This document shows positions 13,074 through 59,755 of a stretch of 64,000 nucleotides of DNA, one piece after another. Numbering within the stretch: the stretch's first letter is position 1; each line of letters starts with the position of its first letter. The position numbers and the translations under genes were made by a program. The notes beneath the pieces were generated by a model. That model was not told the DNA's origin. It was given only the letters and a program-made list of their open reading frames with translations, and did no database searches. Origin of the DNA: Medicago truncatula (lineage: Eukaryota > Streptophyta > Magnoliopsida > Fabales > Fabaceae); contig NC_053042.1 of the NCBI RefSeq assembly GCF_003473485.1, forward strand, positions 28,259,262 through 28,323,261, in the 5' to 3' direction.

Positions 13074-13639
13074 GGCTAAAATATGCTTTTGGTCCCTGTA
13101 AATATAGTGAAGTTGGATTTTGATCCCTGGTAAAAAAAAAATTTGAAAAACGTACTTGCAAAAATTTTTGTTTTTAAAAATAGTCCTTAGACCCACTTTC
13201 TTGCTAATTTGTCTCATTTCTGCCTATGTGGCATATGCTGACTATGCAAACATGTACATGTGGCATCCAGGTGGCAATAATTTAATTTTAACTAATTAAA
13301 AAACATTTTAAAAAAATCAAAAAATATATTTTTGAAATTAAAAAAACATTTATTTTTAGGCTAAAGTGCACTTTTACCCCCTTAACTTTCAAAAACTTGC
13401 AATTTTGACCCCCTAAGTACAAAAACTACAATTTTGGCCCCCTAAGATTTAGCCCCATTGCAAATTTGATCCTTTTGGTCAATTTTGACATAGTCAACGC
13501 CTGTGTGGCATGCCACGTGTGTAAATAATAAATTACAAAAAAATTAAAATGTCATAAAATCATTTTATAAATTAAATAAATAAAAAAAGATATTAAATTA
13601 TAAAAAAAAAATCAGAAAAAAATTAAAATTAAAAGGAAG

Positions 13640-13790
13640 GGAAATGAAAAAGGAAGCGAGGTGATGAACTCTCGTCGGATCTTATCTCCGGGAAGAGTCT
13701 CCCCCCTTGGAAGACGTCGTCGCCGTTCCCAATGACAACCCCTCCTGATACAACTTCGCCACCGTCAAGATCTCGTAGCTTCCGTGCACC
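13640..13790 (-). other. Possible third captured gene fragment
   Basis: On the minus strand one frame gives VHGSYEILTVAKLYQEGLSL, coding-like in composition and GC-richer than the surrounding TIRs. It ends where the ubiquitin homology begins. I do not recognise the source gene. It may instead be part of a 5' region picked up with the ubiquitin exon. Confidence 0.3.
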
Positions 13791-13860
13791 TTCCTTGGAC
13801 GACGGCCGCATTCTCGTCGATTATAACATCCAGAACGAATCCACTCTCCACCTTGCTCTT

Positions 13861-14364
13861 TGTAACACCCCGTTACCCAAAAACAATTAAATAACATTTA
13901 TACATCAGAGTAATCCACAATGGACATGCTACACGTCATTTCAAAATTTCTTAAATAGAAAATAAAACTATTTAATCAAGCAACTTATTATTTATGAAAA
14001 CATAGCAACATAATAGTTTTCAAATCCATAACCTCATAACATCCAACAACAGTCTATGGCATTAAAGGCCTCTAGCATAATTCAACAACATTGTTCAAAA
14101 GACAATAAAGGCTCCACATCACAATTCCAAAATTTGATACCATGGAAAAGAAACAACAATAAATATAAATAATAGTTCCCATCCCACGTATCAGAGCCCT
14201 AGACACGACATTGAGCCACCACCAACTACTCAGGGTCACCTGCAAGTTACCCATAGGAAGGGCAACATTTTCAAGCAGAAGGGGTGAGATTCACAACAAT
14301 AAATATAGATATTAAAATCTTCAATTGAATCTAACACCCTAATCATCAAACACATCATCTTGTA

Positions 14365-14412
<48 letters not shown>

Positions 14413-15975
14413 TCATAAGCAACAAACAACATCAATACACCACCATCACAATGAATATATATAAATGCATATTCAACATCAACATCAACCATCAGATAAT
14501 AACTGCAATCAACAACCAAGACTCATGCAAATGACATGACAACACTGCTAAGACACCATCTTAGACTTCTCAATGAAATGCAATATGCATGTGGTACCAA
14601 ACAGGACCGAAGCCCTCACCGCTTTTGAATGGTTAAAGCATTCATCAGGACCGAAGCCCTCACCGCTGTTGAGCAACTAGTACTCCAGGACCGAAGCCCT
14701 CACCGTTGTTTTATGCATATGCAATGGACCTACTTGTGTATATCTACATACAACTGACCATGCAATGCAACTCAATATGACTCCACTTTAACAATATGTA
14801 TGATTCAGCAATTGGCATACATTTCAACCATCATCAGTAATCATTAATCCAGTAGTTCAATCAACCAAAATAATGCATAATTATATATAACCATGCTCAA
14901 AAACAACAACATCAACCACTACTATTCAAGCTAGCAAAACAACATTCAGGAACTGTGCAGCTCGCCTCGCGAGCACAACTGCTCGCCATGGCGAGTTCAC
15001 AAAACACTAGCTCGCCATGGCGAGTTCAAGGCGAACTCGAGGCGAGTGAACATCAGGTGCTCTCGGGAAAAATGACATTTTCTCACTCAAATCCCAATTC
15101 TAAGTTCCCTATTCACCTTTTTAATCCAAAACTTTCACCATTCATCATTAAAATCATCCAGGTACCTTAAACCATCCCCAAAACATCTTATAACAACTTT
15201 TCAAAAATCAAGTTTTGATATGGGCTACTCGCCATGGCGAGTTGGTCTGCTCGCGAGGCGAGCTATGAAGTTGCTCACTCGCCATGGCGAGCACAGCTAC
15301 TCGCGAGGCGAGCGATGAACTTCTGTACGGGCAGAAAACTGGTTTTACCCAAAAATCTCATTTTTCTTCCAATCACTCCCCAAATCAGTTTACAGATACG
15401 AATTAACTTTCTGTATGCACTTAGAACCTATTTCTAACACCAAATTCACACTTACAACTTCAAATTCATCATTTCATCATAAAAACTCAATTTCCCCAAT
15501 TCTCACCAAAACTCTGTTAAACACAAAATCAGAATTTAATAACTACATTCTTGAAGTAAACCTCACCCTTACCTTAGTTCAGAATGAAAATGCACAGCAA
15601 AAATGGATTCCCTTGGTTCTTCTCTCTTGTTCCTGGTTTTCTCTCCCTTGGCTTGGTTTCACGTAAAAACTGCTTCTGACATCTATTTCCCAACTTCCCT
15701 CTTACTTAACTCCCTAATATTTCATTTAACTCCCCATAATTTCTATTAACTTCTATTAACTCCCCAAAACACCAAAATAATTATTATTTCATACTTATTC
15801 TAATTATTATTAAATAACTATATAATAAAATAATTCACCACATAAATCATCCAAAATCACACATATATATATAAATATATGCATACACTCCGCATAAATC
15901 ACCAAACATCATATATAAATATATATATACTCCACATAAATTAAAATAATTAATTATAACAACTAGGGCGTTACA
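13861..15975. mobile_element. Solo LTR, 2.1 kb
   Basis: It starts TGTAACACCC and ends GGGCGTTACA, an inverted TG..CA terminus, and is flanked by identical 5-bp duplications CTCTT (13856-13860 and 15976-15980). It has no internal retrotransposon genes and no second LTR, so it is best read as a solo LTR left by recombination. A long LTR of this kind suggests a Ty3/gypsy element. Internal features are a (TA)n run at 14368-14411, three copies of GGACCGAAGCCCTCACCG (about 14605-14705), and eight GC-rich dyads of the CTCGCCATGGCGAG/CTCGCGAGGCGAG type between about 14958 and 15315. Confidence 0.9.
14368..14411. repeat. (TA)n microsatellite
   Basis: About 22 uninterrupted TA dinucleotides inside the solo LTR. 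Confidence 0.95.
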
Positions 15976-16034
15976 CTCTTCGTCTTCGTGGTGGAGCTAA
16001 GAAGCGTAAGAAGAAGACCTTCACCAAAATTTCT

Positions 16035-16301
16035 CACAATCGGGTCAACATGAATCTGGGTCGGGTCAGTTTCTGGAACTGAAGCTGAAACTTTTGCTGC
16101 TGAAGAAGTGGATGATGTTGATGGAGAAGATGAAGATGGTGTTGTTGAACGTTTAGAACTTGATGAACGTTTTGTAACTTTTCTTGTTCCAACACCAACT
16201 GGTATGTTCCTTAAAGCACCACCTTTTGCCCAATATCTTTTGCAATGTTCTTGTTCTGGAAAATTTTGTTTCATGGGTTGAAATGTTGTTCGGTCTTGCA
16301 T
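16035..16301 (-). pseudogene. Captured Dof transcription factor fragment
   Basis: From an ATG at 16301 the minus strand reads MQDRTTFQPMKQNFPEQEHC and then directly KRYWAKGGALRNIPVGVGTR. That second block is the C-terminal half of the Dof DNA-binding domain. A Ser/Thr-rich stretch follows, ending in VPETDPTQI. The N-terminal half of the Dof finger, with its first zinc-binding cysteines, is missing through an internal deletion, and a GGG-type glycine run is altered. Near 16035 homology stops and the frame runs antisense into the S27a piece. A Dof protein would bind AAAG promoter sites; this one lacks an intact finger. Confidence 0.85.
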
Positions 16302-17351
16302 TTTTATGTGGTAACAACTTGAATAAAAATAAAACTAAAAGGTAACAACTTTGATTAGAAAATGAATACAATTTTATGCCTTTTGAATTAATTTTTTTTT
16401 TTGAAGATTGTTATGAAGACATGAAAATTGAAGATTGAATGTGTATTATTTTGGATTTTATTTTAAATTTTTTCTGATTTTTTTATATTATTTAATATCT
16501 TTTTTTATTTATTTAATTTATAAAATGATTTTATTATTTTTAATTTTTTTAATTCATTATTTACACGCTGGCATGCCATGCAAGCGTTGACTAGGTCAAA
16601 ATTGACCAAAAGTATCAAATTTGCAATGGGGCTAAATCTTAGGGGACTAAAATTGTAGTTTTTGTACTTAGGGGGCCAAAATTGCAAGTTTTTGAAAGTT
16701 AGAGGGGGGAAAGTGCACTTTAACCTTATTTTTAATATATTAAAAATAGAATCTCCTTCCATTTCACCCTCTTCTTATTCTTCACGGATCCTCTTATTCG
16801 TTCCTCTTCTTCTTCATTGTTTCATTCAATGCTTCATCAATTCATCTTAATCAAATCAAAATTCTGGAAAACTAAATTCATCTTCGTGCAACATCTTCAT
16901 CTTCATCAATTCATCCAAATCCAAATTGAAATTCTGGAAAATGGTGTGGGTTTAAACCCATATCTTCATCTTCTATTTTGATATTCATTTCTGCTTCTGG
17001 GTGTGTTTTGTTCAATTTGTTTCTTGTTTCCTCTTCAATACACTATCTGGTTTTCTGATCGATCTGGACAGTGATGCTTGTTATTGAGTTTGATCATCAA
17101 ATTCATCATCTTCATCCCCCAATTCATTTCTCAGATGTGTAATTACTACCCTTTACACCATTCATCTTTCTCACAACCACACTTAGATCCAATTCGATCA
17201 AATTGTTTATGGAAATTGGGTCTTTAACAAAGTTACTGCACCAAGATCTGGAACTTTTATGTATTTTCCCTCAATCATGAAGGTCACTCCGACCTTATTG
17301 TTGTGTTGTGTTGTGTTTTGTTCGCTTTTATTTAAGTTTGTGAAGATAATT

Positions 17352-17549
17352 TTATGAGCTTTGTTTCTGCTTGATTCATCTTGATCTTTTATACTTCAAT
17401 TATGAATTTAGATTTGGGAGGAAGAAGAATGATACGAAGAAGGAGGACGATTATGAGCTTGGTTTCTGCTTGATTCATCTTGATCTTTTATGCTTCAATT
17501 ATGAATTTAGATTTGGAAGGAAGAAGAATGATACGAAGAAGGAGGACGA
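17352..17549. repeat. 99-bp tandem duplication
   Basis: Two near-identical units start at 17352 and 17451, each beginning TTATGAGCTT and containing GATACGAAGAAGGAGGACGA. The open frame across them arises from the repeat and has no recognised product. It lies inside the outer Mutator-like element. Confidence 0.9.
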
Positions 17550-18017
17550 TTATGTTTGTTTCATTAAGATGAGAATGATAGGAAGTGATTAATTTCTAAA
17601 AAAAATTATGTTTGTTTGATTAAGATGATAAAGTTTATGAAAATGATGAAGAAAGAGTGGAGGGAAGAAGATGATACTAAGAGAAGATGAACATGGGGAG
17701 ATAATTTTATTAAATTTCAAAAATATAGTTTCTGATTTTTTAAAATATTTTTTAATTAGGTAAAATTGAATAATTGCCAACTGGATGCCACATGTACAGG
17801 TTTGCATAGTCAGCATATTTCAAATAGGCAAAAATGAGACAAATCACCAAGAAAGTGGGTTCAGGGACTATTTTAAAAAACAAAAAATTTTGCAAGGACA
17901 ATTTTCAAATAAAATTTTTACCAGGGACTAAAACTCAAACTCGCTATATTTGTAGGGACCAAAAACATATTTTAGCCCATTATTATTTTATGAAAGGATT
18001 TGGTTAGTATTGATATG

Positions 18018-19135
18018 TTTTTTTTTTTTAAGGAAACATTCTTATAGCATTTACTTGATAATAAGAGTTTCAATACAATGAGTATTTCAAAATAAACAGC
18101 AGGATCAGCTAGGAATGTGGTTTCTCTTGCAAGAGTATGAGCGACCTCATTGGCTTGTCGCCTAATAAACTCGACCCTAGAGTTAGAAAATAAAGAAGTA
18201 AACAAAGAACAACAAGAAGAAATAATGAAACCAAATTCAGACATAGAAAAGCATCAGAAGTCAGCTTAGGACCCGTTTCAAAATCCACGCTATCAAATTG
18301 CATGTCACTCAACCATTATAAAGCCAAATGCAAGTCAAGTGCTTCGCTCATGTCAACCGAAACAAGACAAGGATACGTAACAGTCTTGGCCAGAACAAAA
18401 AGTATCATATGAATCACAAACACAAATGTCAATACCTGTTCGGTTGAGGGAAAAGAAGAGAAAGTGGCGTCAGCATTTGTATCTCCCCGACATAGCTGCC
18501 ACTTACGTACACCATGTAGTACCGAAGTGGAAGCCCCCCCCCCCATCAAGAGTCGGTGATGGCTGGTTCTGACTGGTTGATGCAAGAACTGCGGGGGTGT
18601 TAGCCAACTGCCAAACATGCATCTTGTTAGTCATGAAGCATAGCTTTTATTCTCTCCACAACATAAACTTTAGCATCAACTACCTCATTCCACACTTTAT
18701 TGTTTCTTTGTTTTCAGATACTCCACAACACAACAAAATAAAGCCGCATCTTCCTTAGATAAATCATGTAATGCTTTGAAAATAATATTCTTGCTATTCA
18801 TATCTTGTTGTAGCAAAATAGAAATAGAAGAAAACAAAGGAAACATACTCCAAACACTTAAACTACCTGGACATTGAAGAAATAAATTAAATGCATCTTC
18901 AATGCCCACCGTACACAGTGTACAATCCATACGACATGTGACTCCTTTATCTTTTAGATGTACATAAGTTGGTAAGCAATTTCTACAGATTGGCCACATA
19001 ATTTTTTTTTTTACTTTTGGGGGAATCTTGAGCTTCCAAGTTAGATTCCAAGTGCTTTGTATCTTAAAATGGGATGTATCAAGTAATTCTTGCACACGAA
19101 TAGAGTATTCACCATGATTTTTTTTTTCTTTTCAG
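18018..19135 (-). pseudogene. LINE relic: zf-RVT plus RNase H region
   Basis: The minus strand shows first a zinc-binding RT domain (TWNLTWKLKIPPKVKKKIMW, CRNCLPTYVHLKDKGVTC, CTLCTVGIEDAFNLFLQCPG), then an RNase H-like region (VLAKTVTYPCLVSVDMSEAL; then VEFIRRQANEVAHTLARE). Frame changes near 18690 and 18300 and stops show it is dead. A T-run on plus at about 18019-18030 is the poly(A) tail of the minus-strand element, giving a 3' end. A run of C at about 18535 probably contributes to the frameshift. The 5' part of the element is absent. Confidence 0.8.
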
Positions 19136-19687: not shown

Positions 19688-19856
19688 TAGGGGTGGAAAT
19701 AGGTCAGGTCAGGTCAGATTTTGAAAGGTCAGTCTGGCTTACAAAAAAAATTAAAAGCTTGAGTCAGGCCTGTCATAGGCTGTTTTTCTTGGTCTAGCCT
19801 GACATATTTAAAGGAATGGTTTGAAAGCTTACTTTCAGGCCACTTTACAATAAGAC

Positions 19857-20073
19857 TGTAGAAACTCAGGAAATACATAGAAACTCAGAAAAAGACATGG
19901 AGAAATATGTTTGTATATTTACTGAATGCTCTCAATTACAATAAGGTGCTCCTATATATATTGTACGATAGGAGACAAGAAATCAAGGAAAACAATTACA
20001 CATAAAACTAATTGATCCTATTATAATTGAGATATTAATTACAATAATGAGAAGATCATATAATATCGTAACA
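19857..20073 (-). repeat. Copia 3' LTR
   Basis: 217 bp, starting TGTAGAAACTC and ending ATCGTAACA, with an internal near-repeat of TAGAAACTCAGG. It is preceded on the minus strand by the polypurine tract. Three substitutions relative to the other LTR. Confidence 0.95.
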
Positions 20074-20086
20074 TCCCCCCTCAAAC

Positions 20087-21480
20087 TCAAGTAGGTGGAA
20101 TTGTGACCAACTTGAGTTTGGATACTAAAATGCGGAAGCGACTAGGAGAATGAGGTTTTGTAAACAAATCAGCTGGCTGGTCAAGAGTGCCAATGGAGAC
20201 AAGCTGTAGTTCATGACGAAGAAGATGTTGACGAATGAAGTGACAATCAATCTCTATATGCTTAGTGCGCTCATGGAAAACATCATTGTGGGCAATTTGA
20301 ATGGCACTGCGATTGTCACAATAAAGATCAACAGGTGAAGATTGAGATGTCTCTAAATCAGCAAGAAGCCAACGAAGCCACAATATCTCAGATGTAGTAT
20401 CAGCAAGGGCACGATACTCAGCTTCTGTACTAGAGCGAGCTGTCAGAGTTTGTTTCTTGCTACGCCAAGAAATAAGAGAGTCTCCAAGAAAAATACAAAA
20501 ACCAGTAGTAGAGCGACGGTCACTAGGATCACCTGCCCAATCTGCATCAGAGTAGGCTCTAAGAATCAAGGGAGATGTGACTGAATAGTGAAGACCATGA
20601 AACATAGTACCCTTGATATACCGAATGATTCGAAGAACAGCAGCATAATGGGTGCTCCGTGGGGCATTCATGAATTGACTAACTAAATGAACAGCATAAG
20701 AGATATCTGGTCGAGTAACAGTAAGGTAAATCAAGCTGCCTACGAGTTGACGATAAAGAGTTGCATCGTCAAGTAAGGTACCATCTTGAGGAGAAAATCG
20801 AACATTTGGTTCAAGAGGAGTGTGCTCAATTTTACAATCAGTGAGACCTGCTCGAGAGACAAGATCAGAAGCATACTTAGCCTGTGAGAGAAATAAACCA
20901 TCAATGGAAGATAAAACTTCAAGCCCCAAAAAATAACTTAACGGTCCAAGATCCTTCATCTCAAAATGTTGAAACAAGAATTGCTTAAGCTCGACAATTC
21001 CAACAGAGTCATTACCAGTAATAATCATGTCATCAACATAAAGTAGCAACACAATAGTACCATTTTCTGTTTTTCGAGTAAAAAGAGCAGAATCATGAGG
21101 ACTTGAAGAGAAACCCAACTGACTTAGAGTACTGTGAAATTTAGCAAACCAAGCCCGAGGTGCTTGCTTAAGACCATAAAGTGCCTTACGAAGACGACAA
21201 ACTTTGCTTTCCTGACAAGTATAACCTGGAGGAGGACGCATATAAACCTCTTCTTCTAATTCACCATTCAGAAATGCATTTTTAACATCCATTTGTGTAA
21301 GTGACCATTGGCGAGAGGCTGCAATGGCTAAAAGAGTTCGAACTGAGGTAATGCGAGCCACAGGAGCAAAAGTTTCTTCATAATCAATACCATACTCTTG
21401 AGTGAAGCCTTTGGCCACTAGACGAGCTTTGTATCGCTCAATTGAACCATCTGAATGTGTCTTGATTTTGTATACCCACT
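20087..21480 (-). pseudogene. Copia reverse transcriptase and RNase H
   Basis: The frame is uninterrupted from the left breakpoint of the inversion to a stop at 20087. It starts in the RT fingers (AKGFTQEYGIDYEETFAPVA), continues through MDVKNAFLNGELEEEVYM, the catalytic LLLYVDDMIITG motif and the conserved DISYAVHLVSQFM block, and ends with RNase H (AYSDADWAGDPSDRRSTTG, STEAEYRAL, DNRSAIQIA). All expected catalytic acidic residues seem present. It copies RNA to cDNA and degrades the template in cytoplasmic particles. It lacks any start codon of its own because the upstream pol part is inverted away. It is counted as a pseudogene because the polyprotein is broken. Confidence 0.93.
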
Positions 21481-21574
21481 TGATTCAAAATTGCCCCACT
21501 CTTCCTCCACGACCTAATCAGAACAAGAATCAACCTCGTCCTAATTCTTCTAGGCCGGTGCTTGCAACTGTTTC
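21337..21574. repeat. Left inversion breakpoint with duplicated borders
   Basis: 21337-21482 is the inverted copy of 23357-23503 (start of RT). 21477-21574 is the inverted copy of 23501-23597 (end of gag). The join falls in CACTTG (21477-21482), six bases shared by both source segments. Reading by eye, the RT copies appear identical and the gag copies differ at one base. Confidence 0.9.
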
Positions 21575-23503
21575 CTCTGCCAATGAATCTCTAGAAGCCT
21601 CTCAACGTGCTTTCTCTGCGACTGACCTTGAATCCATCCTTAGACAACTTCTTCCATCTGGTAACGGTAATACTCATGCAGCTCTTTCCACCACACCAGG
21701 TAATTCTAAATGGTATTTAGATTCTGCCTGTTGTAACCACATGACATCTTCATCCCATCTTTTTTCATCTTTATCTGAAAATATCACTACTCATTCTATC
21801 CACACAGCTGATGGGTCTCTTATGCCTGTAAGTCATAAGGGTTCTATATCCTTATCTAATCTAAGCTTACCTGATACATATCTCATCCCAAAACTAAACT
21901 TTAATCTTATCTCTGTTGGCCAATTATGTGATCTTGGTTATGAACTTACTTTCTCTTCCTCCGGTTGTCGTGTGCAGGACAAACAGACGGGACAACTCAT
22001 AGGGACTGGATGTAAGATCGGAAGGTTATTTGAGCTCACTCAACTACATGTTCCTCGTGTCTCCAAAAATATTTGTGCTGCTTCCACAGATTCCTCCATC
22101 CAGCTTTGGCATCAACGTCTTGCTCATAGCTCTATTGGAAAATTGCGTCCTCTAGTGTGTCAAGGTCATTTAGGATCAGTAACTAATGAGTCTTTTGATT
22201 GTACTGCCTGTCAAACGGCTAAACAACCAGCTTTGTCATTTAATAAAAGTACTAATATTTCAGCTTCACCGTTTGATCTTGTCCACTCTGATATTTGGGG
22301 ACCTGCTCCCACTCCTACAATGGGAGGTTCTCGGTATTTTGTTTTGTTTATTGATGATTATTCTCGTTTTACATGGATATACTTGATGAAAAATCGTCAT
22401 GAGCTTCCTCAAATTTACATTAAGTTTGCAAAAATGATTCAAACACAATTTTCTAAAATTATTAAAGTTTTTCGCCGAGATAATGCCATGGAATATCGTG
22501 ATTCTAAACTCTTAGATTTTCTTGGTGAGCAGGGTACCTTGTCTGAATTCTCTTGTCCATATACATCTCAACAAAATGGTCGTGCTGAGAGAAAACATCG
22601 TCACATTCTTGACTTTGTCCGTGCCATGCTTATCTCAGCCTCTTGTCCTGAACGTGCTTGGGGTGAAGCTTCTCTTACTGCTGTCCACATTATCAATCGT
22701 CTTCCTTCATCTATCTTTGGTAATATCTCTCCTTTTGAGCGTCTTTACCATACTACACCTGATTATAATTTACTTAAGGTGTTTGGTTGTGCTTGTTTTG
22801 TCCTCCTCCAACCCCACGAACATACTAAACTTGAGCCTCGTGCCCGTCTTTGTTGTTTTCTTGGTTATGGTATTGAACATAAAGGTTATCGATGTTGGGA
22901 TCCCATTTCTCAACGCATTCGCACCTCCCGTCATGTTGTCTTTTGGGAACATAAAATGTTCTCTTCCTTGTCAAATTTTGTTTCAATTCCGTCCACTTCC
23001 ACTCCTTTATTTACTAACCCTGATGTTGACTATTTTAATAGTGACACATATGCAGGTTCTTCTAGTGAGCTCTCTTCCCCTTCCGATGTTCCATCCACTT
23101 CAAATGATGATGTTCCAATTGTTGATCCTGCACCATCCACTACTGAGATTCCTGGAAGGGTAAGAAATACACCTTCTTACCTTCGTGATTACCATTGTTA
23201 TTCTACTATGCTTCACCTTCATGAACCGCAGTCCTATAAGGAAGCCTCTACAGATCCTCATTGGCAGCAAGCTATGATAGAAGAATTACAAGCATTAGAG
23301 AAAACCCACACATGGGACCTTGTTGATCCTCCATCTAATAAGCCTCTGGTTGGATGCAAGTGGGTATACAAAATCAAGACACATTCAGATGGTTCAATTG
23401 AGCGATACAAAGCTCGTCTAGTGGCCAAAGGCTTCACTCAAGAGTATGGTATTGATTATGAAGAAACTTTTGCTCCTGTGGCTCGCATTACCTCAGTTCG
23501 AAA
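21481..23503 (+). pseudogene. Copia protease-integrase segment, inverted
   Basis: Read on plus, this is the normal internal order but in the opposite direction to the rest of the element. It contains the gag tail, a protease active-site region (WYLDSACCNHMTSSS), the integrase zinc site (LWHQRLAHSS ... CTACQTAK), and the DDE core (LVHSDIWGPAP, FIDDYSRFTWIYLM, the second Asp near FRRDNAMEY, Glu in QNGRAERKHRHILD). The GKR-like segment and the RT start follow, ending at ITSVR just before the right breakpoint. The apparent extension at the N-terminus (21402-21480) is antisense RT. The segment is open throughout yet has no promoter or start in this orientation. Confidence 0.92.
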
Positions 23504-23597
23504 CAGTTGCAAGCACCGGCCTAGAAGAATTAGGACGAGGTTGATTCTTGTTCTGATTAGGTCGTGGAGGACGAGTGGGGCAATTTTGAATCAAGTG
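23357..23597. repeat. Right inversion breakpoint with duplicated borders
   Basis: The start-of-RT copy (23357-23503) is joined to an inverted gag-end copy (23501-23597), with three shared bases GAA at 23501-23503. It is the partner of 21337-21574. Confidence 0.9.
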
Positions 23598-24407
23598 CCC
23601 TGGACTCTTGCAATACCGACAACAGTTTGAAGCAATGTGACCTTTTTGCATACAATTACGACATTCAATAGTTGGGCAATCAGAGAAGGAATGTCCAGAT
23701 TTCTGACAGTGGCGACAAGGCTTGGTTGCATTGTTTGTAACTGCGAAGGCTAGATCAGCTTTTGGGCGAACAAGCTGCAACCTAGTTTCTTCAGACTTGA
23801 GACAAGGAAGAGCATTCTCAAGTGTAGGCAAAGGATTCTGGTGTAACAAAGATGCTCGGACTGGTTCATATTCATCCGTAAGAGCCATCAAAAATTGAAT
23901 AAGACGAACACGATCGCGATGAGTCTCATATGTTTTCATATCAGTTGCATCTTTTAATGAAGGCTCACATGATGTCAACTGATTTCATATAACTTCCATC
24001 TGTGCTAAGAACTCATAAACAGGTTGACCAGATTGTTGTTTCAAATTACTAAGATCCTTCAACAATTGATATTGATGAGATAAATCAGAAATAGTGTACC
24101 TTTGTTTCAAATGATCCCATACCTCTTTTGCGTTCTCAAAACGCCCAAATTGCAGATGAATACTAGGAATGGAGGTGTTGCGAAACCAGGTAATAATTTG
24201 ATGGTTCTTGCTATCCCATTCCTCTAATTTATCAGCAAAGGCATCTGCAGTATCATCTTTACCTTTGGTGGGGCACTTTTTATCACCGGTTACATAACGC
24301 CAAAGCCTGCGACCTTTCAAGAATCCGCACATAGATTCAGCCCAGTGGTTATAATTAGAACCATTGAGAATAATTGAAATAGGAGGCGTGACTTCAAGTT
24401 TCTCCAT
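23505..24407 (-). pseudogene. Copia gag with in-frame stop
   Basis: Gag forms the particle that packages retrotransposon RNA. Start chosen: the ATG at 24407 (MEKLEVTPPISIILNGSNYN). The conserved UBN2-type region follows (YNHWAESMCGFLKGRRLW, VWDHLKQRYTI). A TGA at 23985-23987 interrupts it after QMEVI, and the same frame then continues (SCEPSLKDATDMKTYETHRD) to two adjacent CCHC-type zinc knuckles (CRHCQKSGHSFSDCP and CRNCMQKGHIASNC), with a third, CRYCKSPGHLIQNC, just behind. The frame ends where the inverted segment begins. The stop is a nonsense change, not a frameshift. Confidence 0.9.
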
Positions 24408-24806
24408 TATAGAATCAAGGAAGAATAATACGGTAAGAACTGAATTGGGGAAAATTGACTGACAAAACAAGAAATTGAAAAGATCTCACCAAAAAACTTT
24501 CGATGTTGTTTTGATGAAAATTGGCCAAGTTGTAATTAGCCAATTTACTACAGGACAAGCTAACAATTGTTGTCGCAACCTAACAATTGTTATAAGGGGA
24601 AAAGAGACTCAAAAAAGTGGAACTTGTGAGGAAATTGAACATGAGTATATAAATAAACGAGACGGCGGCAGCGGTAATTATTATTATATTTTTTTTTTTA
24701 TATATAAAGTAAAATATGATGAGATAATATGTGTGACGGTGAAAAACAAATAACTTAAACACCACAGGAAAAAAAAATGAATCGAAAGCCTAAGCTCTTG
24801 ATACCA
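24408..24806 (-). other. Copia leader with tRNA primer site
   Basis: The untranslated leader lies between the 5' LTR and gag. The site at 24794-24806 resembles the 3' end complement of initiator-Met tRNA with one extra A. Small open frames here are not supported. Confidence 0.8.
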
Positions 24807-25023
24807 TGTAGAAACTCAGGAAATACATAGAAACTCAGGAAAAGACATGGAGAAATATGTTTGTATATTTACTGAAAGCTCTCAATTACAATAAGATGCT
24901 CCTATATATATTGTACGATAGGAGACAAGAAATCAAGGAAAACAATTACACATAAAACTAATTGATCCTATTATAATTGAGATATTAATTACAATAATGA
25001 GAAGATCATATAATATCGTAACA
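24807..25023 (-). repeat. Copia 5' LTR
   Basis: 217 bp, partner of 19857-20073. It should contain the promoter of the element; CTATATATATTG near 24902 (plus strand) is an AT-rich TATA candidate. Confidence 0.95.
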
Positions 25024-25391
25024 AAGACCATCAAATAGTTCACTTGACCTACTAAATAAGTTAAATAGGCCTGCCTACATAAAAGTATATTTCTCTACAA
25101 GTAAATTGGAAGGGGAATGATTTTTTTTTTTTAGGGGATAATGGGATTGTTCTTATGTTTAATATATAATAATAATAATGTAAAAAATAATTTTAATATT
25201 ATGATTATAAATAGGCCGACTTATTATGCTTAACATGCTTTTTTAAAAGCCTAAGCTTGACCTATTTGATCAAATATGCTTTTTAAAAAGTTTTGGTCTA
25301 ACCTTTTTAATAAATAGGTCAGTCCAATCCAGTCCAGGCCTAAAGAGGTTAAGTCGTCCTTGTAAGATGGACTGGCCTATTTCCAACCCTA

Positions 25392-27622: not shown

Positions 27623-29556
27623 GGCTTAAATATGTAAAAGGTCCCTGTAAGTTCGCGTGTTTTTTGTTTTCGTCACTGTATCTTTTTTTGTTCTAAAACA
27701 AACCCTGTAAATTGTTAACTTTTTGGTTTTAGTCCCTAACGTTAACTTTTGTTAAAAAAAACGTTGATGTGTCTAATGGTGGCTGGCGTGGCATTGTTTG
27801 ACGTGGCAAAACAGGCTTATGTGTCCTTCTAGGAAAGATTACAGGGACCAAAATCAAAAACGAAAAATTACATAGGGACGAAATTAAAAATCACTAAATT
27901 GCAAAGTTTAAAATTAAAAATCCTTGATGTTTCCATCTTCTTCCTCTCTCATCCATATTATTCTTTTTCTGCTTAGATTCTCTTCACTGTGAAATTGTAA
28001 AGATACCATTTGTAGCTTCTCCTGACTTTGTATCGTGATTTCTCCATTCACCAAACATATACTTCATCATTTTGAGGCCAAAATCTGTCTCATTTTTTGT
28101 CCTATGTCACATGAGTAAGTACATGTTTATGGGAGAAAAAGGTGATAAGTTAGCTTAGAATTTTCATTTTATTCTCCGTTAGCAGTTCAAAATTTCAAAC
28201 AGTCTTTAAGAAATATGTTTCTCTCAATAAAAGGAACAAACACAAATTGCCAGCCACATCAAATAACCAAATGTTGTTGTGGGAACCCAGTTCCAACCTC
28301 TGTATAGTGAACTTTGTCGGATAATAAAAATTTAGTACCTAACAACATAAATCAACACAGGTTATTGGTTTTTGTGTACTGATTTGTTTATCAATAAGTA
28401 GTTTTATGAAGGATAAGGTAGTTATGTTCATATATAGTGTAGCATCATTTTATAAATCCAATGGAGGTCTTTATATACATTAGGTCAATTCTGGAACTAG
28501 TAAATCTTAATATGTTTTTTTCGTCCTTTTTTAAGTTAACTTCACTTAAAATTAACAAGAACTCAACAATTTAATTTTGCCATGTGATGGAATTTAAAAA
28601 AAAAAAAATGAATATTTGATGGTGTAATATAATATGTGTTTCTTAGAAGTTCATTGAGTTATGTAGTTGTACAAATTAGAGTCTAATCTTGACTTATGAA
28701 ATTGCAGTTATTTGTATATAAAATAATTGAAGACCTTCAAACCATAGTTATTTACAAATTTAATTTTCCTTCTGGAGAAATCAATTAGCAAGAGATTGTA
28801 GACTTGAGCAAAATATATAGTATGATTTTATAGTATATGGAATTGCTTCATCTTGTAAGAGAGCCAAAGTTTACTGGTGTGTGGAAGTAGATTAATGATT
28901 CTAATCTCAGATGCATCATGCAACTGGTTTGTTTTAATCTTATGATGGTTTAAGTTATGTTTTCTTGCCATTAACCTTTGATGTTTTCTATTCTCTTATT
29001 CTTCCTCTGCATAGTGTTTGAAAACCTAGCTAGTTTTCAAGACACAAAATTTGATTTTGGTATTCAAGTTATTTTTTGGTGAGAGTAGCACTGTTGGAAG
29101 TGTCACTTTAGTTCCAATGTTGTACTATTGTTGTCCGCAAATGAAACAAAATGAGTTACGACAATGGAATGCAAGGAAATAATGTTACAAGTTCATGCAA
29201 GAAGAATATGGAAGAGAGAGGAAGAAGACACAAAGAGAGGAAGAAGATGGAAACAAGGCTTTTAATTTCAATTTTTGTAACTTAGTGATTTTGAATTTCG
29301 TCCCTCTGTAATTTTTCGTTTTTGATTTTGGTCCTTGTAATCTTGCCTGGAAGGACAAATAAGCTTGTTTTGCCACGTCAAACAACGCCACGTCAGTCAC
29401 CGTTAGACACATCAACGTTTTTGTAACAGATGCTGACGGGTGGGACGAAAATCAAAACGTTTGTAACTTACAGGGTTTGTTTTAGAACAAAAAAAAGATA
29501 CAGGGACGAAAACCAAAAACACGCGAATTTACAGGGACGATTTACATATTTTAGCC
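27623..29556. mobile_element. Mutator-like element with about 330-bp TIRs
   Basis: The ends are GGCTTAAATATGTAAAAGG and, on minus, GGCTAAAATATGTAAATCG. Inverted arms run to about 27950 on the left and back to about 29210 on the right, sharing phrases such as TTCGCGTG, GTTTGACGTGGC and CTTCTTCCTCTCTC. Both flanks are long A runs, consistent with a 9-bp A-tract target but not provable. The central 1.25 kb has no recognised coding sequence. Non-autonomous, and related in terminal sequence to the outer element at 13074-17977. Confidence 0.8.
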
Positions 29557-39007: not shown

Positions 39008-39422
39008 AATTAAAACATCAATAATGTTTTAAAAAAGAATGACATTTTTAACAAACTAACATTATTTATTAGTGATTGTAAAAAAAACATTATTTATTAG
39101 TGGTGTATTTCTATCATCATAAATAAAAAGTGAATATAATTCTTTGGATGTACTATATTCCATAATTTTTTTAGGGTAGTAACAAAAAAAAACAAATAAT
39201 AAAAAGAAATAATCTTGTATTGAAAAGTGTAAATTACATTCATTTTAATTTTTGTTTGTTTGTTAAAATACACTCGATTTGAACGGTTGAAGTATTTAGA
39301 GTGTTTGGATGATACAATTGAAAATTTAGATGAACTCAAATGATTTCCTTGAATTGAATTGATTTTTAAATATCTTGTTTGGGTAGAGTAATAAAAACAA
39401 TATTGTTAAGATCGTCGTGTAA
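39008..39422. other. Intergenic
   Basis: AT-rich, no gene recognised. Confidence 0.4.
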
Positions 39423-39907
39423 AATGGGTGAAGCCAAACAAAGGTCGTTTTAAATGTAATATTGTTGCATCTTTTTTTGAGCATTTGAATAAGGTTGGAT
39501 TAGGGATGTGTATGAGAGATGAAAATGGTACTTTTGTTTTGGCTAAACAAGAATATTTCAGCCCCATCTGTGAGGTACACATTGAAGAAGTTCTAGGACT
39601 TTTATTTGCATTGGATTGGGTTCATGAGCTAAATATAGGACCTGTGAATTTTGAACTAGACGCAAAGAGAGTGGTGGATAGCTTTAATTCCCAAAATTGT
39701 GATGCTATGGAATTTGGGAACATCATTAGTCATTGTAAATCTCTTTGTATTAATTTTTATGAAAACTCAAGTGTCGGGTTTGTACGGAGACAAGCAAACA
39801 AGGCAGCTCATATGTTAGCTAAAGCGGCTTTGTTATTAGCTAGTTTTCAAATTTGTGTTGAAATACCAGATTGTATTGATCACATGTTGATAAATGAAAT
39901 GCAATAG
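39423..39907 (+). pseudogene. LINE-derived RNase H-like fragment
   Basis: The frame reads KPNKGRFKCNIVASFFEHLN, then GLGMCMRDENGTFVLAKQEY, FELDAKRVVDSFNSQ and FVRRQANKAAHMLAKAALLL, the RVT_3 RNase H-like domain found at the C-terminus of plant LINE polyproteins. Catalytic aspartates are partly lost (IVASF where DASF is usual). An A-rich tail follows at about 39917. It is a 5'-truncated LINE insertion. The open frame of 159 codons could be translated, but nothing suggests selection for a host function. Confidence 0.75.
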
Positions 39908-57500: not shown

Positions 57501-59755
57501 TTACACCTTATTTACTCTAACTGGAATAGCTCGCAAGGGTTGATTAATGTCTCTATCTCCATTTTCCAGTTTCCAATCAAAGAAATTAATCAATGATCCT
57601 AACATCATATGTATCATTTTAGTAGCAAGTGGCATGCCAGGGCATATTCTTCTCCCACCACCAAATGGTGTCAATTGAAAATTTTGACCATTGAAATTAA
57701 TTTCTGACCCCAAAAACCTCTCAGGCAAAAATGAATTTGGATTATCCCAAATATTAGGGTTTCTTCCTATGGCCCATTCATTTATTACGACCTGTGCACC
57801 TTGAGGGATAGTGTATCCATGAATTTTAACATCAACCCTAGCTTTTTTTGGTAGTAAAAGTGGAGCTGATGGGTGCATGCGTAACGTTTCTTTTACTACT
57901 GCTTGCAAATATGGGAGTCTAGTAATGTCTGATTCCTCAATTGGATTTCCTATACCAATTATTTGTTTAAGCTCTTCTTTGGCTTTTAACATTGCATGTG
58001 GGTTGTGGACCAGTTCTGCCATTCCTCTCTCTATAGCGTAGGAAGTTGTATCTGTCCCCGCAACAAATAAATCCTATTACAAAGTCCCAAAATGTAATAT
58101 AAATAAATAGTTAACAAAATTACACTTTTAATAACAAGATTAATATTAATATTTGCATAAGAATATCTCATAATGAGTGAGTATGTGAACACATTTGTAT
58201 TCCTCAAGGAAAAAAAAAAGGGTAAATACATCTTTTCGTCCCTGTAATATTAGCGAATTCCAATTTTAGTCCCTGTAAAAAAAAGATTTAGATTTTGTCC
58301 CTGTAATTTCAGATTCTTCCACTTTTGGTCCCTCCTTTCATCAAGTCATTAGAATCTGCATAAATTACGTCATTGTAATTTCATATTCCTCCCACTTTTG
58401 GTCCCTGTAATTTCAGATTACTCCACATTTGGTCCTCATTTTACGTGCCATGTATGCAGATTCTACTGACGTGGTGAAATGAGGGACCAAAAGTGGAAGA
58501 ATCTGAAATTACAGGGACAAAATCTAAATCTTTTTTTTTACAGGGACTAAAACCGGAATTCACTAATATTACATGGAAAAGAGGTATTTACCCAAAAAAA
58601 ATAATGAAGTTAGGATGATGTCAACTAGTCGTTATATATAGTCAAAAGACAACTTTCACTAGCTTAAACAAAGTTATTTTAAAAATAGAAAAATTATCAC
58701 ACAAATATAAACAAAACAAGGATAGTAAAATAAAGTTAAAAATAAAAATAAAATAAAAAGATGGAGAGAAAATTTACAAGAAACAAATGTTGAATCTTTG
58801 TTGTGTCCATCATTTGGCCATTCTCTTGAGAGATGTTGAGCAAATTGTCTAACATGTCACCATTTGTGACATAATTTTCTTCATTTCTTAACTCCAATCT
58901 CTTGGTAATATAGGAATCAAAGATTTGCAACAATTTTTCAGCATAAGTAGCTGATATTCCCCTGATACCTTGTGGGTCAAACATCCTCAAAATAGGGAAA
59001 AAATCAACCAAGTTTGGTGTTCCTATTGCTGTCATAAGACTTTCAACTATATCTTTATACTCATCAGTTTCACCTGCAGAGTTAACAAAATCCATGGAGA
59101 AAAAAGTGTTTGACAAAACATTCAACAAAGTCTTAAAAGCAGCTTTCTCAACATCCACTGCTTCACCAACCAAGCTACTTCTATCAATATCACATAAAAG
59201 CTCTTGCAGCTTCTTACACCTAAGTTCATTGCTAGCATCAAGAGTTTTGTTAGAAAACAAATTGTTTTTGCATATTTTTCTTAGGTCTCTCCAAAGATTT
59301 GACATTGGCATAAATGGTAAGCTAAAATGTTCATGACCAAGAACTGCTACAGCTTGAGGAATTGTTCGGTCCGAGATCGAGAGATCATGGGTTTGAAACA
59401 CTTCTTGTGCTATATCTGGTGATGAAATTACTATAGTTGTTATTTGACCTAGCTTTAAATGCATTATTGGGCCATATATTTTGGAGAATTTGGCTAATGA
59501 GTATTGTGGTTTTTTTCCTAATTCAAAAACATTTCTCATAATTGTAAGAAGTGAAGGACCTGGTGGAAGATTGTACTTTTGTTTTTTGGTTCTACCAATG
59601 AGTGAAATTAAGCTTATAGAAATGTATGTTAAAAAGAGAATGAGCATTGTGGTTGCAAAATACATTTCTGGATTCATATTGCTATAGCCTAAAGAGGATA
59701 TGATATTTTGATATGCTTGGTAATACATGGAACTAATTGATTTATACAAACTCAT
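57501..59755 (-). CDS. Cytochrome P450, CYP76-like, 2 exons
   Basis: A haem monooxygenase of 516 residues. Exon 1 is 58778-59755 and exon 2 is 57501-58073; the single phase-0 GT..AG intron sits before the I helix, as usual for A-type plant P450s. An N-terminal membrane anchor (FATTMLILFLTYISISLISL) is followed by the proline-rich hinge YNLPPGPS. Exon 2 holds the oxygen-binding AGTDTTS, the ExxR motif KETLR, the PERF motif (FLPERFLG) and the haem loop FGGGRRICPG with its Cys ligand, so catalysis should be intact. Similarity suggests family CYP76 (terpenoid or phenolic hydroxylases such as geraniol 8-hydroxylase); substrate cannot be told. Translation may start at Met27 (59677), since 26 residues precede the usual start. 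The intron carries a MITE. Confidence 0.93.
58220..58593. mobile_element. Long-TIR MITE in P450 intron
   Basis: The ends are GGGTAAATACATCTTTTCG and, on minus, GGGTAAATACCTCTTTTCC. The arms of about 130 bp share TCCCTGTAATTTCAGATTC and CCACTTTTGGTCCCT in inverted order. Both flanks are A runs, consistent with a 9-bp duplication. It fills over half of the 704-bp intron but leaves both splice sites clear. Confidence 0.88.

Follow-up and report, generated by a model that had tools for sequence, protein, structure and literature searches.

In a 64,000-nucleotide stretch of the Medicago truncatula genome (hereafter the window; C1:28259262-28323261 in a 430-Mb assembly of 42 contigs), a Copia LTR retrotransposon carries its middle part in the reverse direction. 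Did this inversion arise while the element was being copied, before its insertion, or by a rearrangement of the chromosome afterwards? The first-pass annotation had described a Copia element with an inverted middle and with both breakpoint segments duplicated, and this description is confirmed in the assembly by the LTRs, the AAGAC duplication, the open reading frames and the inverted pairs. The element occupies positions 19857-25023 of the minus strand (5,167 bp), as defined by its LTRs, target duplication, open reading frames and Pfam domains. Its parts are the following:

19852-19856, no strand: left target-site duplication AAGAC, the same 5 bp as 25024-25028
19857-20073, minus strand: 3' LTR, 217 bp, TG...CA, differing from the 5' LTR at 3 of 217 positions
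20087-21484, minus strand: reverse transcriptase (RT) frame, 465 aa, in normal orientation (Pfam RVT_2, E 9.8e-74)
21337-21482, minus strand: duplicate b outside the block (start of RT), 146 bp, with 0/146 differences from the reverse complement of 23357-23502
21477-23502, plus strand: inverted block with Pol_BBD, gag_pre-integrase, integrase, SH3-like domain and the first part of RT (Pfam; 742-aa open frame)
21477-21482, no strand: junction 2, shared CACTTG, 6 bp; its 21-base pattern has 1 exact match in the assembly
21477-21574, plus strand: duplicate a inside the block, 98 bp, with 1/98 differences from the reverse complement of 23500-23597
23357-23502, plus strand: duplicate b inside the block, 146 bp, inverse partner of 21337-21482
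23493-24485, minus strand: gag with zinc knuckle, in two adjacent frames broken by an in-frame stop at 23985 (Pfam Retrotran_gag_2, zf-CCHC)
23500-23502, no strand: junction 1, shared GAA, 3 bp; its 21-base pattern has 1 exact match in the assembly
23500-23597, minus strand: duplicate a outside the block (end of gag), 98 bp, inverse partner of 21477-21574
24807-25023, minus strand: 5' LTR, 217 bp, TG...CA, paired with 19857-20073
25024-25028, no strand: right target-site duplication AAGAC, the same 5 bp as 19852-19856

The domains are those of a Copia-type element (Pfam Retrotran_gag_2, gag_pre-integrs, rve and RVT_2). By position the order is also that of Copia, with integrase between gag and RT; among the classified copies, integrase has its direction reversed in this one only. 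As the annotation had stated, the remaining parts keep their normal order: gag and RT both lie on the minus strand, and AAGAC flanks both ends. The RT frame presumably includes an RNase H part, Pfam giving RVT_2 only, and the internal bases beside the 5' LTR resemble what we take to be a plant initiator-tRNA primer-binding site. Gag, protease, integrase and RT do not run in one stop-free direction, the middle being reversed and gag carrying the stop at 23985. The copy is thus presumably non-autonomous as it stands, and it looks like a single dead element.

The inverted block measures 2,026 bp with the shared bases included, roughly the middle two-fifths of the element. The annotation had placed it at 21481-23503, a few bases from the measured ends, and had called it protease-integrase. 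The inversion and the integrase part of that label (rve, gag_pre-integrs) are borne out. A plus-strand open frame at 21402-23630 (742 aa) covers the integrase part and the start of RT, and Pfam recognizes in it Pol_BBD, gag_pre-integrs, rve, SH3_retrovirus and part of RVT_2, with no named protease family. The Pol_BBD region is assumed here to be the protease region.

Both breakpoint segments are present twice, in opposite orientation, and their sizes (98 and 146 bp), their near identity (about one base of difference) and the shared bases at the joins (6 and 3 bp) all agree with what had been claimed for them. The sole difference, in duplicate a, lies at 21502 versus 23572, and the derived base is that at 21502, in the inverted copy. 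When joins were placed at random within the element, six or more shared bases were found with P = 0.002 and three or more with P = 0.06. Because an overlap of 6 bp or more is expected in only about 0.2% of random joins, the joins were probably guided by microhomology. Purine tracts and folding were also examined around the joins; the block contains purine tracts of 14 and 15, and nothing in the tracts or the folding indicated a mechanism.

A whole-element search of the assembly returned at least 89 matches, with the best 40 of 366 first-look candidates scored, and all counts derived from it are lower bounds. Sixty of the 89 match rows were classified into 33 clusters, 16 of which contain the block plus a flank. 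Among the matches listed, all 15 of the other classified loci have the collinear order, and the inverted order occurs in the window copy alone. A search with the LTR gave 18 matches, two of them the window element's own LTRs. The annotation had proposed a search for other copies sharing the inversion, which would show mobilization after the rearrangement. Run on this one assembly, the search found only the window copy as an exact match to either 21-base junction pattern and no further match to either at up to 2 mismatches, so there is no sign of later mobilization. At 3 mismatches the two patterns gave 23 and 7 further matches, and reversed control patterns gave 17 and 0. Outside the assembly, a search of the viral_contigs set with the protein of the block found no relative there, and two DNA patterns (junction 2 and the LTR start) found no match in the same set. 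In the genome_contigs set, the RT protein as query found two loci, one with 49% identity in an uncultured bin and one weak match with 53% over 32 residues; both were left aside.

The closest relative among the matches listed is a collinear copy on C6 (C6:18044416-18049302), which has its own 5-bp target duplication, GAAGA. Close to the LTR start, the window copy has 19 bp that are missing from both LTRs of the C6 copy. Over 5,155 compared bases, with the duplicates counted in both pieces, the two copies differ by 42 substitutions: 10/2,026 in the block, 15/1,605 on the RT side and 17/1,524 plus 24 gap columns on the gag side. Divergence in the block is thus lower than in the flanks (10/2026 versus 32/3129, Fisher P = 0.04); against the coding flanks only, the difference is not significant (10/2026 versus 19/2304, P = 0.20). 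Changes were polarized with five more distant relatives as outgroups, whose coverage is incomplete, many gag sites having one outgroup or none. On this basis, 5 of the 10 block differences fall to the window copy and 3 to the C6 copy, and 2 are unclear. As a separate observation, of the derived changes in the C6 copy itself (C6:18043500-18050500), 3 lie in the block region and 16 in the flanks, or 14 once two LTR sites are reassigned by LTR comparison. This imbalance could come from chance, missing outgroups or gene conversion.

Two clocks are present in the one element, the breakpoint duplicates and the pair of LTRs. The window duplicates have 1 change in 488 sites and the LTR pair 3 differences in 434 sites (Fisher P = 0.35). 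In the single-copy interior (4,245 sites), 8 changes can be assigned clearly to the window copy alone and a further 12 are unpolarized, at most about 20 altogether; these private changes are an upper bound, since they include any that predate the insertion. With interior totals of 8, 14 and 19 in 4,245 sites, the ratio of the duplicate rate to the interior rate is 1.09, 0.62 (P = 1.0) and 0.46 (P = 0.71), respectively. If inversion and insertion had the same age, the duplicates would be expected to have 1.2, 1.8 or 2.4 changes with the interior pooled with the LTRs, and 3.9 with the LTRs alone (P of 0 or 1 change = 0.20); 1 is observed. The likelihood ratio of the same age to any later time ranges from 0.58 to 1.28 by calibration, the LTR-only (0.58) and the highest interior (0.80) calibrations leaning toward a later inversion. 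At LTR sites, a comparison of four LTRs takes precedence over polarizing by outgroups. Over 196 aligned positions, 7 vary among the window and C6 LTRs, and each of these changes is confined to a single LTR, 3 of them falling to the window copy and 4 to the C6 copy; the two copies therefore came from closely similar parents. None of the three clocks (duplicates, LTRs, interior) tells an origin in the same cycle apart from a later one. The earlier claim that the inversion is recent is not upheld, the change rate of the duplicates permitting an inversion as old as the insertion, or younger; from these counts, the inversion may be of the same age as the insertion or younger than it.

On plausibility only, we consider it somewhat probable that the inversion arose by an error of reverse transcription, before integration. 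The normal sense order would have been gag - a - M - b - RT, where a and b are the segments now duplicated. The growing minus-strand DNA would have copied RT and then b, slipped on the 6 shared bases to a DNA strand of opposite sense, landing on the edge of a that faces gag (the outer edge), and copied a-M-b in reverse. A second slip, on the 3 shared bases, would have returned it to the RNA where a has its inner edge, with copying continuing through gag to the LTR. The resulting molecule, gag-a-(b'-M'-a')-b-RT, would keep its ends intact, and integrase could insert it in the normal way, giving rise to the AAGAC duplication. The structure so predicted agrees exactly with the observed order and duplicates; the timing of the switches, within reverse transcription, and the strand used are what we infer. 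An origin in reverse transcription is preferred because the rearrangement stays within a single insertion that is otherwise complete and has both ends intact, because template switching belongs to the normal cycle of LTR elements, and because recombination of Onsen and inverted HIV-1 proviruses are on record. The 6-bp overlap (chance P = 0.002) is counted in favour of this origin, and the rates of change in duplicates and interior allow inversion and insertion to be one joint event. Against it, two jumps to an opposite-sense template are required, and homologous switching is reported to exceed nonhomologous switching at least 1,000-fold in frequency, in a paper whose text does not contain the word inversion (PMC3187697). 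In plants, high-frequency recombination of Onsen was ascribed by its authors to co-packaged RNAs in reverse transcription (PMC5668417). The words inversion and inverted are absent from the text of that paper, and the Onsen case is one of ordinary recombination. A literature search on internal inversions of LTR elements found no plant case in titles or the openings of abstracts.

The same anatomy is predicted by a chromosomal inversion after insertion, a tenable but less probable course of events, in which fill-in of two staggered breaks, 98 and 146 nt wide, would have been followed by microhomology end joining that put the released piece back in reverse, or replication-based repair would have made the same two jumps. 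Staggered breaks with fill-in, the mechanism named in the first-pass annotation, do predict the structure found, but two opposite-strand template switches would leave it as well. Models of staggered breakage yield inverted duplications at the ends of inversions, as described in parts of a Drosophila study (PMC7584159). The microhomology of 6 and 3 bp suits breakage and end joining, and the LTR-only clock tilts slightly toward a later event. However, two staggered breaks would both have to fall inside one 5.2-kb element, and none of the clocks shows that the inversion postdates the insertion. Another proposed mechanism of microinversions, by pre-existing flanking inverted repeats (described in sections of PMC8755829), was set aside since it needs such repeats beforehand.

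The other explanations are weaker than either an error of reverse transcription or breakage of the chromosome. It is unlikely that the real element is collinear and the inversion an artefact of assembly or sequencing: a collinear element would presumably lack inverted repeats, the usual cause of misjoins of this kind, both joins have microhomology, one duplicate has a private change at 21502, and the block carries its own changes relative to the C6 copy and so is not misplaced C6 sequence. The two LTRs and the probable primer-binding site would in principle permit an already inverted parent to be mobilized in trans by the enzymes of intact relatives. Such a parent is nonetheless very improbable, given that the assembly holds a single occurrence of each junction pattern, that all other matches to the patterns have 3 mismatches, and that among the matches listed the other classified loci are without exception collinear. 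Least credible of all is that the block was copied as a patch from the C6 sister into a gap in the window element. The C6 copy is the closest among the matches listed and the block is nearer to it than the flanks are, but the block is ancestral at the 3 sites derived in C6 and has 5 changes of its own. The idea of a patch had come from a match table giving the block as 100% identical versus 99% and 97% for the flanks, and that 100% was a rounded 99.5%. The 10 differences, some of them private to the window copy and others to C6, rule out a patch from the present C6 copy.

Comparable products are known from other systems. Two HIV-1 proviruses with inversions were reported, each making up 1.3% (n = 1 for either), one of which carried a deletion as well, and the passages describing them state no cause (PMC9278108). 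As here, these are integrated LTR elements with an inverted stretch, present as rare defective copies; unlike the plant Copia element, they belong to a virus in T cells, and duplications at their breakpoints are not described in those passages. The complex LTR elements formed by template switching in Triticeae and other grasses share with the window copy a 5-bp target duplication and matching outer LTRs, an argument for one event of reverse transcription and integration, but they consist of two fused elements, have a third LTR internally and show no inversion (Sabot and Schulman, 2007; PMC1950507). In that study, products of template switching were found to be a minor share. In Drosophila, a 2,026-bp microinversion has duplicated ends, and repair alone could also give such duplications, according to the sections concerned (PMC7584159). 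The staggered-break inversions described there resemble the present one in their duplicated ends (59 and about 540 bp, versus 98 and 146 bp here) and differ in being chromosomal, not within one retroelement.

The window copy clearly exemplifies an error of a known type. More tentatively, and with slightly less than even confidence, plant Copia reverse transcriptase may be able to make two opposite-strand switches in one cycle and have the product integrated, in which case inverted copies with duplicated ends would be a regular kind of plant LTR element that has been overlooked and whose members can be dated from their LTRs. A survey of copies holding both clocks could tell inversions made in reverse transcription in plant LTR elements from later chromosomal ones.

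Several other features were observed in the window. At positions 1-2363, a 102-bp tandem repeat forms two arrays, one of about 8 copies and one of about 5, in a larger duplicated stretch spaced about 970 bp. At 13074-17977, long inverted arms of 242, 173 and 101 nt (80-88% complementary) enclose an interior of about 3 to 4.4 kb with a MIR2617 match and a 99-bp tandem duplication; this is possibly a DNA transposon with long ends. Inverted arms at 27623-29556, about 300 nt in all and 81-91% complementary, surround about 1.3 kb and likewise resemble a long-ended DNA transposon. Fragments at 18697-19131 and 39410-39907, with zf-RVT and RVT_3 domains, are perhaps remnants of non-LTR elements. Rfam microRNA families matched in the window are MIR5284, MIR5269 and MIR2617, all of them families of Medicago, and a 94% complementary hairpin at 58277-58538, which overlaps the MIR5284 match, may be a MITE-derived microRNA precursor.
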